Of a stretch of 64,000 nt of DNA, positions 28,826 to 34,205 are shown piece after piece; the first letter of the stretch is position 1, and every line of letters begins with the position of its first letter. The notes under the pieces are model-generated. The model was given only the letters and a program-made list of their open reading frames with translations. It was not told the DNA's origin and did not search any database. The stretch comes from Guptibacillus hwajinpoensis (GTDB taxonomy: Bacteria; Bacillota; Bacilli; Bacillales; Guptibacillaceae), in contig NZ_LELK01000001.1 of NCBI RefSeq assembly GCF_001039475.1, positions 1,576,819-1,640,818 of the forward strand, read 5' to 3'. The translations under genes and the position numbers were made by a program.

Positions 28826-29288
28826 AGGTATGCCGTTCAAGTACGATTCACCACCCTATCGTTCAATTTCCTTCCTTTTCTGCTAGTCTGGATGACCTAG
28901 TGGCCTTTTCCCTTTCTCCCATAAACCAGTTAGATCCTACTAGTAATTCCCATCCTACTTTTGATTATAGTTAATTATTTGAAATTTAGGAATACTTTTT
29001 TAGTATGATTTCCTCACTTTATTCTTCTTTTTTATTTCCAGTTTTGAAAGTATTAACACCTATTGATTTCCTTGATTAAAGTTGTATAATATAATGTTAT
29101 TTTTACCCAATTAAGTAAATTTCGATCCCTACACACCTGACTCCTCCTCACTATTGGGTACTAAGACCCCGTACGTGAGTCTCATTTTTAGGAGGTTCTT
29201 CCCATTTACCACACAAGTGACTATTGGTACCCTATAATACTGTTTGAGCATGATTTTTCTGCACAACTATACAAAGGGGATAGAGCGA
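28826..29288. other. Long control region upstream of the LXG operon
   Basis: 463 bp of AT-rich sequence without a credible gene. It contains a good sigma-A promoter (29063-29090), implying a leader of about 190 nt. Inside the leader ACCCAAT (29106-29112) can pair with ATTGGGT (29152-29158), and a second TATAAT occurs just before the first gene (about 29234). Confidence 0.6.
29063..29090 (+). promoter_or_regulatory. Sigma-A promoter of the LXG operon
   Basis: -35 TTGATT (29063-29068), 16-bp spacer, -10 TATAAT (29085-29090). Confidence 0.65.
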
Positions 29289-29657
29289 ATGTCCTATTTA
29301 TCATATTTACAATCAGAAATAGCTGAAAAACAAGTTCAGCTTATCCGCCTACAATCAAGCTTAACTAAACTTGAAGGTATACAAAATGAATTCTTCCAAA
29401 ATAAACAGCTTATCGATACTCCTGAACTCTCCCCTGCTACATGGGAAGGTGAGTTAGCGAACTCATTCAAAAACATTCGAGAAGATATGAAACTAGCTTA
29501 TCAAAATCTATCTGCGAATCAGCTAAACACAGCAATAATTACGATGGAAAATAAAGCACAGTATCTCAGGTACGAAATTCAGTCACTTGAAATGAACATT
29601 ACACAAGAAAGACATCGCCTCGAAGAAGAAGCAAGAGAAAGGAGAAATACCAATTGA
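29289..29657 (+). CDS. DUF5082-family (YwqH-like) LXG helper protein
   Basis: A 122-residue all-helical, coiled-coil protein (SYLSYLQSEIAEKQVQLIRLQSSLTKLEGIQ) of the YwqH/DUF5082 type, WXG100-sized. In other Firmicutes such small helical proteins bind the LXG domain and target the toxin to the type VII secretion system. The frame opens at 29244, but AAGGGGA fits the ATG at 29289. First gene of the operon; its stop overlaps the next start. Confidence 0.82.
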   Translation: MSYLSYLQSEIAEKQVQLIRLQSSLTKLEGIQNEFFQNKQLIDTPELSPATWEGELANSFKNIREDMKLAYQNLSANQLNTAIITMENKAQYLRYEIQSLEMNITQERHRLEEEARERRNTN

Positions 29658-29932
29658 GTCATGAGCTACTTGTCAAATTCAATGAAATTGAACAGTCCAT
29701 TAGTCGCATTGAAAAAAGTTTAAGTGCCTTTAACGCAGAACTTCCGAAGAACACAGGAGAAGGCAATAATCTTGATGTTGTGAATCGCTTGAATGAGTTG
29801 AATCACATGATGACAGAAGTCGGCAACGCTTATAAACAGATCCTAGCTGAAAACAACCAGACCGTACGAGAATCTGTACAACAATTAGAGAATGCAGACA
29901 AAGAACTCTCTTCCTCTATTCAATTACGTTAA
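29654..29932 (+). CDS. DUF5344-family (YwqI-like) LXG helper protein
   Basis: A 92-residue helical protein (HELLVKFNEIEQSISRIEKSLSAFNAELPK) of the YwqI/DUF5344 type. It starts with TTG overlapping the previous stop (TTGA), with AGGAG nine bases upstream. Together with the DUF5082 protein it should form the chaperone/targeting pair for the LXG toxin encoded next. Confidence 0.82.
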   Translation: MSHELLVKFNEIEQSISRIEKSLSAFNAELPKNTGEGNNLDVVNRLNELNHMMTEVGNAYKQILAENNQTVRESVQQLENADKELSSSIQLR

Positions 29933-29947
29933 GAGGTGAAGGCTACA

Positions 29948-31336
29948 ATGAAAACACTAGACGTCCAATCGCTTCATCAAGGTATTGAACATACCCGATC
30001 TGCCGTCACTACTATGAGAACGCAAACGACAGAGCTCCGTTCATCTATTGAAAGATTTACTACATTGGAAGCTTCTTTTAACGGTCATGGCGGGAAAGCA
30101 GTTCGGTCATTCTACCAGGAATGTCATCTCCCCTTTCTGACTTATTTGGAAAATGTCATAACTCACTTTGAAGAGAAGCTAGTCAATTTGATTAACTCTA
30201 TCCAATCATATGAACCACAAGAATCTGGATTCGTTCGAGAAGATTTTCTTGCTAATGATGTGGAGAATGGATTACATAAAGCTCAAAACATAACTGATCA
30301 ACTAACAAGCGACAGCAATTCCATTATCCGAAGCGTAAATGACATTATCTTTATTCCAGAATTACAGCAAGATGAATTTAATACAAATGTCCACAGAGGA
30401 CAAGAGAAAACAACCCAAGTTCTTGAAGATCTTCATGCTTTAGACAAAAGCCAAGCAAACCACTTAGAAGCAGTCCTTCAAGAATGCCACACACTCATGA
30501 ATTACATAAGAGAAGTATCAACCAGATTTCAAAGTGGGGATATTTCGATTAGTGGTTATCAGGTAGGAACGATGAGTGCTATTCCAGCTTATAAGACGGT
30601 GATGAGTGGTTTGTCTTCAGGTTCATCTGGGACGAGTACGGTTGGGAAGGCTGTTCAGGCGAAGAAATCTGTTGATGTTGGTATTGATCCTATAGCACCA
30701 TTTAAAGGACCAAGCGGAGCATATAGACTAGCTACTGATGGTTTTGCCTTTTATTCAGCAGGTCGAGAAGTTAAAGGAGGTTTTAGGATAGAGAAAGTCG
30801 GTAAATCAGATAAAGTTAAACATCTAGTTTACGAATCAAAGTACAATAAATTTAAAACCGCTCCTAAAAATGGACGAAATTTTAAGACCTTTACTCAAAA
30901 GTACATCAAATCCCAAGTAAATAGAGGGAATTCTCTTAATTTAAATGTTTCTAAATTTCTAAATGGTAAAGCAGGAGCGATTAGTGCTGTAAAAAGTAAA
31001 ATTGGATGGCTAGGAGTAGGTATCACTACGGTCGATAATGCAAGAAAAAATATTCACAACGATGAAAGCTCAAGCAAAATTGTTGGAGATGCAGTAATTG
31101 ATGTAGCGATCGGTGCAGCTACTCTAGCTGTCGGAGGCGCATTTGCTGCATTAGCTGTAAGCGCAGGTGCACCAGTATTATTTGGAACAGCAGTCACAGT
31201 CGCAGCATCTCTAACTGTTTCCTATGTATTAGATGGTCTTAAGATAAATAATAAATCAATTGGCGATCATTTTAAAAATGGAGTACAATCAGTAGCTGGT
31301 TGGTTCAACGATACTGCAGAGAGTATTGTTAATTAA
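29948..31336 (+). CDS. LXG-domain type VII secreted toxin with glycine-zipper C-terminus
   Basis: A 462-residue polymorphic toxin. Residues 1-200 form the helical LXG domain (MKTLDVQSLHQGIEHTRSAV, PFLTYLENVITHFEEKLVNLINSIQSYE). A Ser/Gly-rich linker (SGLSSGSSGTSTVGK) near 220 leads into a basic central part and a hydrophobic Gly/Ala segment at about 384-430 (AIGAATLAVGGAFAALAVSA and following) with repeated small residues, as in glycine-zipper membrane-inserting toxins such as TelE. No nuclease, deaminase or NADase motif is visible. The frame opens with GTG at 29936; AGAGGTGA fits the ATG at 29948. Membrane-disrupting activity is inferred. The secretion machinery itself is not in this window. 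Confidence 0.85.
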   Translation: MKTLDVQSLHQGIEHTRSAVTTMRTQTTELRSSIERFTTLEASFNGHGGKAVRSFYQECHLPFLTYLENVITHFEEKLVNLINSIQSYEPQESGFVREDFLANDVENGLHKAQNITDQLTSDSNSIIRSVNDIIFIPELQQDEFNTNVHRGQEKTTQVLEDLHALDKSQANHLEAVLQECHTLMNYIREVSTRFQSGDISISGYQVGTMSAIPAYKTVMSGLSSGSSGTSTVGKAVQAKKSVDVGIDPIAPFKGPSGAYRLATDGFAFYSAGREVKGGFRIEKVGKSDKVKHLVYESKYNKFKTAPKNGRNFKTFTQKYIKSQVNRGNSLNLNVSKFLNGKAGAISAVKSKIGWLGVGITTVDNARKNIHNDESSSKIVGDAVIDVAIGAATLAVGGAFAALAVSAGAPVLFGTAVTVAASLTVSYVLDGLKINNKSIGDHFKNGVQSVAGWFNDTAESIVN

Positions 31337-31360
31337 TTTAAAGGTATAGAGGAGGTTATT

Positions 31361-32098
31361 ATGCTTAAAATTCCTGAAAACAAAAAAACTAGAAACCTTC
31401 CAAATTATATGCAGGAACACCTCATTATGATATCACCTGATAGTGCAAAGGTAACAATCACGATGTTTTGTCTCATATTGCTTGATATGAGTGCTGTTCC
31501 TTTGCTCTATCCAAAAAATGACTTGATTTACATGATAACTATTCCACTAATCATTTTTATACATTTATGGTTAATCCGATTGTTATTCAAAAACCCTTAC
31601 ACAACACAGATGGAAACCACTTTGTTTATGGGTGTTTTTTCTATAATAGGAGCAATATGTAATTTCATCACTAGCATAAAAGTTTCATATGTATTTGTCG
31701 AAATATCAAACCTATGGTTCTATGTTGTGTTTTCAATAGTACATATAATACTTATTGCCGTTCTGATTCAATATCAAATCGAAAAATATTCTGAAATAAA
31801 TTATAAAATAGAGGAATCCAACAAATGGTATAACAATACAAGGTTTATTCCTCTTCTAACTGCAGCCCCTGGTATTGGCTACATTATATTTCAATCTTCC
31901 AAAAATAGTGAAAAAGGTATGCATAGTGTGTTTTTAATCGCAACAGTAATTTTCACTCTATTCCTATCGTACTTCGCTGCAAAGTACATTCATAAATACT
32001 TTTTTATGAAAACAAATATGAGATTAGTTTTCTTTGATAAACCTTCTGATAAAAATTTACTTAAAAAGTACGAAAGAAAAGGTGTTGTATACAAATAA
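31361..32098 (+). CDS. Multi-pass membrane protein, probable immunity protein of the LXG toxin
   Basis: A 245-residue protein with about six membrane helices and a cytoplasmic-looking basic C-terminus; no known family recognised. It follows the toxin gene by 24 bp with an AGGAGG site and overlaps the DUF4176 gene by one base. A multi-pass membrane protein directly after a membrane-acting LXG toxin is the expected place and type of an immunity protein. A broken copy of its 5' end lies at 32498-32554, which is typical of toxin-immunity loci that accumulate orphan immunity genes. Base composition is more AT-rich than the surrounding core genes. Confidence 0.65.
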   Translation: MLKIPENKKTRNLPNYMQEHLIMISPDSAKVTITMFCLILLDMSAVPLLYPKNDLIYMITIPLIIFIHLWLIRLLFKNPYTTQMETTLFMGVFSIIGAICNFITSIKVSYVFVEISNLWFYVVFSIVHIILIAVLIQYQIEKYSEINYKIEESNKWYNNTRFIPLLTAAPGIGYIIFQSSKNSEKGMHSVFLIATVIFTLFLSYFAAKYIHKYFFMKTNMRLVFFDKPSDKNLLKKYERKGVVYK

Positions 32099-32376
32099 TG
32101 ATAAAACTACTCCCAAACGGCACCATCGTCTTACTAGACGGTGGCAACAAAAAACTAATGATTTACGGTCGAAAACAACTTCACCTAGATGAAGAAAAAG
32201 TTGAGAACGAGCAAGACCTTGATATGTACGACTACATAGGTGTGCCCTATCCAGAAGGTTTTATTGATCAAGAGCATACTTACCTTTTTAATCACGAAAA
32301 CATTGCTCAAGTTATTTTTGAGGGATTTAAAAATGATGAAGAGGAGAAATTCCAGGAAGTATTGAAAGAAGTTTAA
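32098..32376 (+). CDS. DUF4176 domain-containing protein
   Basis: A 92-residue soluble protein matching DUF4176: GTIVLLDGGNKKLMIYGRKQ, YDYIGVPYPEGF and FNHENIAQVIFEGFKNDEE. DUF4176 genes regularly accompany LXG/type VII toxin loci, though their job is unclear. The ATG overlaps the stop of the membrane protein gene (TAATG), so the two are coupled, and a hairpin follows. Confidence 0.85.
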   Translation: MIKLLPNGTIVLLDGGNKKLMIYGRKQLHLDEEKVENEQDLDMYDYIGVPYPEGFIDQEHTYLFNHENIAQVIFEGFKNDEEEKFQEVLKEV

Positions 32377-32497: not shown

Positions 32498-32554
32498 ATG
32501 CTAAAAATTCCAGAAAATAAGAAAATTAAACATCTACCAGACCACTTCGTTTAA
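32498..32554 (+). pseudogene. Truncated second copy of the LXG immunity gene start
   Basis: ATG followed by 18 codons (MLKIPENKKIKHLPDHFV, then TAA). The first nine residues are identical to the start of the membrane protein at 31361 (MLKIPENKKTRNLPNYMQ) and the rest is similar. Nothing resembling the remainder of that protein follows, apart from another small membrane protein at 32586. It is the remnant of a duplicated immunity gene. Confidence 0.75.
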
Positions 32555-33276: not shown

Positions 33277-33313
33277 GTGTCCTATCTAGGCTCAATCTTG
33301 TTCGATATAAATT

Positions 33314-33337
33314 GGGGTCAGACACGTACCTGACCCC
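33314..33337. repeat. Family A palindrome, copy 9 (hybrid of both core types)
   Basis: Left half GGGGTCAGACAC is of the CACGTG-core type, right half GTACCTGACCCC of the GTAC-core type. The outer eight bases still pair (GGGGTCAG/CTGACCCC). It lies 10 bp after the stop of the minus-strand gene at 33347. Confidence 0.85.
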
Positions 33338-33346
33338 ACTGCGCTT

Positions 33347-33670
33347 TCACATCACTCTCTCAATATAATCCCCATACCCTCTTACAATCTCTATCCCCTG
33401 CTTCTCTAACTCCTTCCACACAAATCGATCTAGCGCAAATGGCGCGGTTGCTTGAAGCGTATCAAGTTCCTTTTCAGAAATCACCAATTCGTAATAACGA
33501 TTATCCTTTTTCACGACGATTTTATAGTCAGAAAGCTTCATTACCATCACTTCATACACAACGCTCCACTCTTTCAACTGTCGTTCAATGACGTCAGCTA
33601 CATGCAATAGAAACTTCTCTCCATTATAGTGCTTCGCCAATAAGCCCCTAGCAAACCCATTGCTATTCAA
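33347..33670 (-). CDS. Unknown protein controlled by a SAM riboswitch
   Basis: A 107-residue soluble protein of mixed alpha/beta pattern (HVADVIERQLKEWSVVYEVMVMKLSDYKIVVKK, then ERVM end) with no recognised family and no membrane segment. AAAGGAG fits the TTG at 33668-33670 (protein MNSNGFARGL). Upstream on the same strand lies a SAM-I riboswitch with its own terminator, ending about 40 bases before the start, so the gene should be expressed when S-adenosylmethionine is low. That suggests a role linked to methionine, cysteine or SAM metabolism, which nothing in the protein itself reveals. Confidence 0.7.
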   Translation of the reverse strand: MNSNGFARGLLAKHYNGEKFLLHVADVIERQLKEWSVVYEVMVMKLSDYKIVVKKDNRYYELVISEKELDTLQATAPFALDRFVWKELEKQGIEIVRGYGDYIERVM

Positions 33671-33711
33671 CCCAATCACTCCTTTTTCTTTCTAACAAGG
33701 TATCAGCAAGG

Positions 33712-33758
33712 AAAACGAGAAAAGGCCCTTCATCGCAAATGAATGCAACAAAGAGCCT
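33712..33758 (-). terminator. Riboswitch expression-platform terminator
   Basis: Minus-strand stem AGGCTCTT (33751-33758)/AAGGGCCT (33723-33730) with a further imperfect stem inside, followed by UUUU-rich sequence. It lies 14 bases after the SAM aptamer. A similar hairpin sequence occurs at 42620-42658 without an aptamer. Confidence 0.75.
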
Positions 33759-33771
33759 ACGCTTTTCGTTC

Positions 33772-33870
33772 GTTATCATTCAAAGCCATGCTTTGCAGGT
33801 TGTAGCACCTTACCGGCTGGCAGGTTGCTGTGAAGTCAATGAGCCCGTGCTCTCGTTCACTCGTGATAAC
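33772..33870 (-). ncRNA. SAM-I (S-box) riboswitch aptamer
   Basis: On the minus strand the P1 helix is GTTATCA (33864-33870)/TGATAAC (33772-33778). Conserved S-box elements appear in order: P2 with GTGAA/TTCAC and an internal kink-turn, the invariant AGCAACC, the GGTGCTA of P3/J3-4, ACCTGCA and a P4 stem AAAGC-ATG-GCTTT directly before P1 closes. This is the class I SAM aptamer; with the terminator at 33712-33758 it should shut off the gene at 33347-33670 when SAM is abundant. Confidence 0.87.
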
Positions 33871-33938
33871 CTTATTTAATTTGTTTTAATTTACTATATT
33901 CAGAGGTCTGTCTATTAATAAAGTATCAGCCCAATTGA

Positions 33939-34205
33939 TTAGAAGATTGATAAACTAATGCCGATTGCAAACAAAACAACGCCTGCAATGGAGTAGAACA
34001 TTCCAGAGCGGTTCTCACCCTTAATCCTTTTCGAAAGGCCTGCAAGTAGATTCACAATACCAAACGAAATCAAACCGTATAATAAGAGGCTTTCCTGCTC
34101 AGGATGCATGAGGTACATAATTGGCATGAAAAGAATTGAAATCGAAAGGATCACCTGAACGACACTCAATGAGAAAATAATTTTGGATTGAGACTCAGTA
34201 CTCAT
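33939..34205 (-). CDS. Small membrane protein of unknown function
   Basis: An 88-residue protein with three membrane helices (IIFSLSVVQVILSISILFMPIMYLM, LLLYGLISFGIVNLLAGL, MFYSIAGVVLFAIGISLSIF) and a basic loop. AGAAGGA fits the ATG at 34203-34205; the frame opens at 34223. No family recognised. No coupling with neighbours is visible. Confidence 0.7.
   Translation of the reverse strand: MSTESQSKIIFSLSVVQVILSISILFMPIMYLMHPEQESLLLYGLISFGIVNLLAGLSKRIKGENRSGMFYSIAGVVLFAIGISLSIF

Follow-up and report, generated by a model that had tools for sequence, protein, structure and literature searches.

The 107-residue protein family described here belongs, as comparison across Bacillales genomes shows, to the set of genes controlled by S-box (SAM-I) riboswitches. 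In Guptibacillus hwajinpoensis, the family member and its leader lie on the minus strand of the 64,000-nucleotide stretch of DNA that was analysed (the window), and very probably constitute a SAM-I transcriptional OFF switch with its one-gene unit, whose product represents a conserved, S-box-tied family that may perhaps serve the cell under methionine or SAM shortage. The RNA is of a known kind; the protein family, a conserved S-box target, is uncharacterised as far as our searches show. Control by an S-box points strongly to the pathway in which a gene acts, and an unnamed family that many Bacillales families keep under SAM control possibly marks an overlooked step or control of methionine/SAM physiology, a reading that is testable by ordinary laboratory genetics. 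It is the leader subtype, with its several uncharacterised targets, that could develop into something new; it provides a handle for collecting candidate genes and for probing whether set-point or ligand has diverged among SAM-I aptamers.

The S-box leader and its gene

The full-length aptamer (33770..33872, minus strand), with helices P1 to P4 and a pseudoknot between the P2 loop and J3-4, matched Rfam model RF00162 when the minus strand was searched (33872-33770, 68.5 bits, gathering score 44.4, E 7.4e-14, model positions 1-108); the preliminary description had claimed a complete S-box aptamer followed by an intrinsic terminator, and both were found, its span of 33712-33870 covering aptamer plus terminator. 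A covariance model of 38 aptamers that precede genes of the 107-residue family (R1) gave the locus copy (L014) 106.2 bits, this copy being itself among the building sequences. The SAM-I fold and its pseudoknot are upheld by covariation over the 38 aptamers: against a structure taken from the window aptamer's alignment to Rfam, 97.5% of cells were paired and 13 of 35 base pairs changed on both sides, a paired level that 0 of 500 shuffles reached, and slid versions were 32-44% paired. The pseudoknot was 99.3% paired in the same set, with the variants CUGG/CCAG, CGGG/CCCG and CAGG/CCUG. The columns UAU, GAG, GCAA, GGUGC and GAU were invariant, and we take these motif columns to be the SAM pocket.

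Three-prime of the aptamer, a 15-pair terminator-like hairpin (33758-33723, minus strand) is followed by TTTCTCG; this predicted intrinsic terminator is also present in relatives, and its 5' arm and loop may alternatively form an antiterminator with the P4 and P1 3' strands. The window copy has a short U-run; of 51 leaders, 50 have a T run of at least four behind the aptamer. In a scan of 33300-34000, two terminator-like sites were found against a shuffle mean of 0.6, and no sigma-70-type promoter met the scan consensus (shuffle mean 1.5). The ribosome-binding site AAGGAG (33679..33684, minus strand), which has counterparts ahead of the start codons in relatives, is followed after 8 nt by the TTG start of the 107-aa open reading frame (33670-33347, minus strand); a longer alternative of 110 residues from a GTG start is not needed. 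Behind the gene, the hairpin scan located the probable 3' terminator of the transcript, the inverted repeat GGGGTCAGGTACGTGTCTGACCCC (33313..33338, minus strand). Similar copies follow the gene in two other genomes (G010 and G002) and occur near the remnant in a third (G005), and the repeat may therefore be a dispersed one that serves as a terminator.

The re-pairing partners of the predicted antiterminator are the P4 3' strand, J4/1 and the P1 3' strand on one side, and the 5' arm and loop of the terminator on the other. In 48 of 51 leaders, three or more nucleotides of P4 join the best alternative duplex; compared with shuffled partners, the z of this duplex is at or below -2 in 36 of the 51 and above -1 in seven, three of which come from the genus of the window. 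From this anatomy, bound SAM would keep P1 (and P4) in place, the terminator at 33758-33723 would form and transcription would stop; at low SAM, the 5' arm and loop of the terminator would instead be captured by the P4 and P1 3' strands, and the gene would be read. The product would be a small, soluble, mostly acidic alpha/beta protein, perhaps acting under methionine or SAM shortage. With known SAM-I leaders the window copy shares the complete aptamer, the conserved core, the pseudoknot and a terminator between aptamer and ribosome-binding site; it differs in belonging to a subtype with P4 of the sequence CAAAGC/GCUUUG, and in a predicted antiterminator that includes P4.

Pairing of S-box and gene in relatives

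The association of leader and gene recurs widely. An S-box stands directly upstream of the gene in all seven gene-bearing genomes among 14 searched in the genus, and in 46 of the 66 homologue-bearing genomes of the order, broken copies counted (for example G002, G011, G077, G105 and G390), the S-boxes being recognised by Rfam, and in G154 and G383 by R1. The small protein had been proposed as a new S-box target, and the homologue search bears this out: RF00162 matched at the locus, and the gene is found downstream of the aptamer in relative after relative. With 14 S-boxes in the genome and an estimated 4000 or so genes, the chance of an S-box before any one gene is below 1%. The marginal homologues G026 (E 9.8e-4) and G300 (E 6.8e-4) both have an S-box directly upstream, and so do, with scores over cut-off, six of ten named loci (Pseudalkalibacillus spartinae, P. 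hwajinpoensis, Neobacillus paridis, Metabacillus fastidiosus, Rossellomorea vietnamensis, an Alkalihalobacillus, two Bacillus sp. and two MAGs). Since the pairing recurs across many Bacillus relatives, the protein is probably part of the methionine/SAM response.

In a 47th genome (G180), a leader of the same subtype heads a putative operon that encodes, in this order, a 350-residue protein, an M28/M42-type peptidase and the 107-aa-family protein. The 350-residue protein is, we presume from inspection by eye, TPR-like; a relative of it in L073 had no Pfam match. In four loci of distant genera (L071, L073, L070 and L039) a 350-residue gene without Pfam match adjoins the 107-aa-family gene, and in three of the four an M28/M42-type peptidase gene follows the 350-residue gene.

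An intact S-box directly upstream is absent in 20 of the 66 homologue-bearing genomes; 12 of these belong to family f40, where the gene sits in a fixed lipoprotein-like/proA-like neighbourhood. In family f62 (36 genomes matched in the class search) none of 10 loci tested has an S-box, and three f62 loci share another neighbourhood. Given these homologues, and the four named loci without an S-box, the protein does not need the switch. The f40 and f62 settings gave no function when considered as clues, and few neighbours are common between genera among the S-box-bearing loci compared. Weak or broken S-box remains were found in G184 (57 bits), G205 (29 bits) and G335 (76 bits), and at a MAG locus (L040) 27.7 bits were scored about 100 nt upstream. 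The S-box of G335 (L085 8296-6400, minus strand) is apparently split by an insert of about 1.8 kb with imperfect direct repeats at its ends, which leaves the P1 3' strand and the terminator with the downstream gene; the insert carries a gene that we take, from its look, to be of ankyrin-type lipoprotein kind.

The protein family

The preliminary description had found no recognisable family for the 107-residue protein (33347..33670, minus strand), which agrees with the profile searches: no Pfam or NCBIfam model reached its cut-off with the window protein, and over 30 members no model matched more than two even at E 0.1. DUF1827 (PF08860) was rejected, with 14.4 bits against a gathering cut-off of 23.4 and a match to one of the 30 members at E 0.1. 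A profile of these 30 members (A2), made from 34 sequences after leaving out duplicate L046, truncated L049, L056 and L019, found the family in 66 of 397 genomes of the order and in 44 of 398 genomes of the class, two sets that overlap. This spread through the order, together with dN/dS values of 0.07-0.22 over 10 pairs within the genus (dS above 1 in 7 of the 10), indicates that the family is real; on these substitution ratios the protein is under purifying selection within the genus. The gene is dispensable, since half of the 14 genus genomes lack it, two of the seven genus copies are frameshifted, and stop codons lie inside the homologue matches of G077, G105, G390 and G192.

Members share 29-74% identity with the window copy; the residues R8, V24, D81, W85, G92 and Y102 are invariant, and predicted isoelectric points for eight members range from 4.8 to 7.9, seven of them at or below 6.1. 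AlphaFold2 predicts two helices, three strands and further helices (pLDDT 92.4, pTM 0.84). Foldseek returned nothing at E <=0.001 from either PDB (best E 0.2, an SRP Alu-domain protein) or BFVD (best E 2.3e-3, TM 0.38), and the best VIA-align match, at Z 5.4, was to a designed protein; the resemblance to double-stranded-RNA-binding and ribosome-hibernation-factor folds is weak at these scores (Foldseek best E 0.2, VIA-align best Z 5.4). Because the few invariant residues look unlike a catalytic or metal site, we lean weakly, and with little confidence, towards a binding or regulatory partner rather than an enzyme. A phage origin was rejected, as the window sequence, used alone as query, had no relative in viral_contigs and no PHROGs family matched more than 2 of the 30 members; an assignment to a defence system was likewise dropped, the PADLOC matches of the window protein being weak (E 0.007-0.008).

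A leader subtype and the genes behind it

The aptamers that precede genes of the 107-aa family are alike in sequence far beyond the conserved core. Within the same 14 genomes, their mean identity is 0.79 versus 0.62 for metK S-boxes, a value lowered by long P3 insertions that were counted as gaps, and they are more alike than the metK aptamers in 87 of 91 genome pairs; the metK comparison started from 20 loci, in six of which the S-box was below cut-off. The P4 helix CAAAGC/GCUUUG occurs in 79 of 87 subtype leaders versus one of the 13 other S-boxes of the genome and 0 of 14 metK leaders. Its near-fixation is likely due to the re-pairing of the P4 3' strand with the 5' arm and loop of the terminator, and an extra RNA function that keeps the leader was set aside after this re-pairing was found. 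R1 gave 89-113 bits to 13 members outside its building set, several of them near relatives of sequences used; non-members reached at most 75.1 bits (other S-boxes of the genome), at most 58 bits (metK leaders) and 80.8 bits (the cysH-like leader of G005). In a FastTree phylogeny with the 13 other S-boxes of the genome as outgroup, the 87 subtype leaders formed one clade, with a support of only 0.49.

At or above 89 bits, R1 had at least 88 matches in the 397 genomes, a lower bound (nine candidates scored per genome, stricter filters). The 89-bit line was chosen after the scores had been seen, and a true case, G300, scores 87.1 bits; of the matches of 81-89 bits only a few were read, among them L215 and L216, a cysH-like and another leader. 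Downstream genes were read by eye except where stated, and leaders of the 107-aa family score highest partly by construction. Among the 88, 47 precede a 107-aa-family protein (profile A2), one precedes the G180 operon and two precede short or broken look-alikes; 14 stand before proteins of about 80 residues (family f44), 11 before alpha/beta hydrolases (one tested, over its first 130 residues, was PF12146) and nine before 60-75-residue proteins with the motif MTPEELExFKxERYxKF (two tested, without a Pfam family); four were unclear or not fetched. The f44 proteins are probably distant relatives of the 107-aa family, with a profile comparison of 85.6% probability (E 5.6e-6, 62 columns, seven of the 14 f44 proteins aligned); the hydrolases and the 60-75-residue proteins are unrelated to it.

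Since the subtype fronts other genes in other lineages, the controlled gene was probably exchanged in the history of the leader. Gene type changes nine times on the leader tree, against a mean of 20 and a minimum of 17 after shuffling, with the 107-aa protein and its short relatives scored as one type; leader and gene therefore mostly travel together, with several exchanges. Two genomes (G228 and G136) carry two subtype leaders each, with different genes behind them; mutual exclusion of gene types is not claimed, the numbers being too small. In L207 (G209), near 380-700, a subtype leader and a hairpin are followed by an apparent ordinary S-box before a metY-type gene, an arrangement of tandem S-boxes. 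It is conceivable, if rather doubtful, that the uncharacterised genes behind subtype leaders form a separate S-box branch, switched together, with one undescribed function and a different SAM set-point or another ligand; this set would comprise the 107-aa protein and its short relatives, the alpha/beta hydrolase, the 60-75-residue MTPEELE protein and the putative G180-type operon.

Alternative readings of the leader

The preliminary description had also raised the case of an orphan switch, whose original target was lost and which has by chance come to control a small gene unrelated to it. The occurrence of the subtype before alpha/beta hydrolases and MTPEELE-type small proteins speaks for such a history, but the pairing with the 107-aa family in 46 of 66 genomes, from many families, largely refutes it and leaves it unsupported at this locus; in G005, where the gene has been lost, the aptamer too has decayed, to a 20.8-bit stub with the terminator still there. 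We hold an orphan switch to be most improbable, and the recurrent pairing identifies a conserved S-box target instead of a riboswitch that drives whatever follows. A role at the RNA level deserves hardly more credence: a protein that binds the leader, or a terminated leader that acts in trans, would account for the stronger conservation of the leader compared with the protein, and the order helix - three strands - helix in the structure model bears a weak likeness to RNA-binding folds. The second pairing with the terminator, however, explains the conservation of P4 otherwise, the metK identities used as a yardstick are depressed by the P3 gaps, and the protein is mostly acidic and without a significant fold match.

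A ligand other than SAM, although improbable, would accord with gene associations that differ from those of ordinary S-boxes, with the distinctness of the subtype by R1, and with the base combination at J3/4-J4/1, which is A/U in 68 of 87 subtype leaders versus U/A in 7 of the 13 other S-boxes of the genome. Yet the motifs that we presume to hold the SAM contacts are kept throughout the 87 leaders (UAU..GAG in 86, GCAAC in 84, GGUGC in 87). A precedent exists in the spermidine riboswitches, which PMC10853860 describes as a SAM-I aptamer subtype of Gram-positive bacteria with gene associations of its own, acting as OFF switches by termination before polyamine genes, with changes in the SAM-contacting J1/2 and P3 internal loop. 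The window leader likewise falls in a SAM-I subtype with its own gene associations and is predicted to switch OFF by termination; in contrast to the spermidine variants, the core motifs of its subtype, J1/2 and the P3 internal loop included, are kept. No polyamine gene was recognised as the first gene behind the subtype leaders read, and an identity with spermidine riboswitches was rejected on these grounds. Because of the kept core motifs, SAM appears the likeliest ligand of the subtype.

Other S-boxes in the genome and neighbouring features

The genome holds 14 S-boxes over the RF00162 cut-off, of which the window copy has the lowest Rfam score; all of the S-box genes but the window gene could be named. 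By recognition, the other 13 precede genes that we take to be of methionine, cysteine or SAM type: metQ, a cystathionine lyase/synthase type, metN, a metY-type gene, a DmoA-type monooxygenase, metX, cysJ, mmuM, an NhaC-type antiporter, cysH, an acyl-CoA-dehydrogenase type and metK, besides msrA, the only one of the 13 checked against Pfam. These 13 further S-boxes resemble the Bacillales S-box regulon of met, cys and SAM genes; the window S-box differs in controlling a family without assigned function. Methionine regulation in Gram-positive bacteria was reportedly the subject of a comparative study in 2004.

According to PMC3766115, various Bacillales genes under SAM riboswitches are probably involved in Cys/Met metabolism or transport. 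Our literature search met a possibly similar case only in PMC4342826, which tabulates a SAM riboswitch before Bacillus methanolicus BMMGA3_09040, likewise a lone gene of uncharacterised function; we do not assert that the association is unpublished.

Behind the S-box before msrA (L009, C14:752844-752958), the MsrA open reading frame has a Fur-regulated basic protein A domain at its N-terminus (PF13076, 43.5 bits). In two f21 genomes (L072 and L076), a small FbpA-like-looking gene behind a second S-box adjoins the 107-aa-family gene. Elsewhere in the window, positions 29244-32376 (plus strand) hold an LXG-domain gene (PF04740, 191.8 bits), its small partners and a gene for a DUF4176 protein, and a truncated copy of the start of the 245-aa gene at 31361 is present near 32500.
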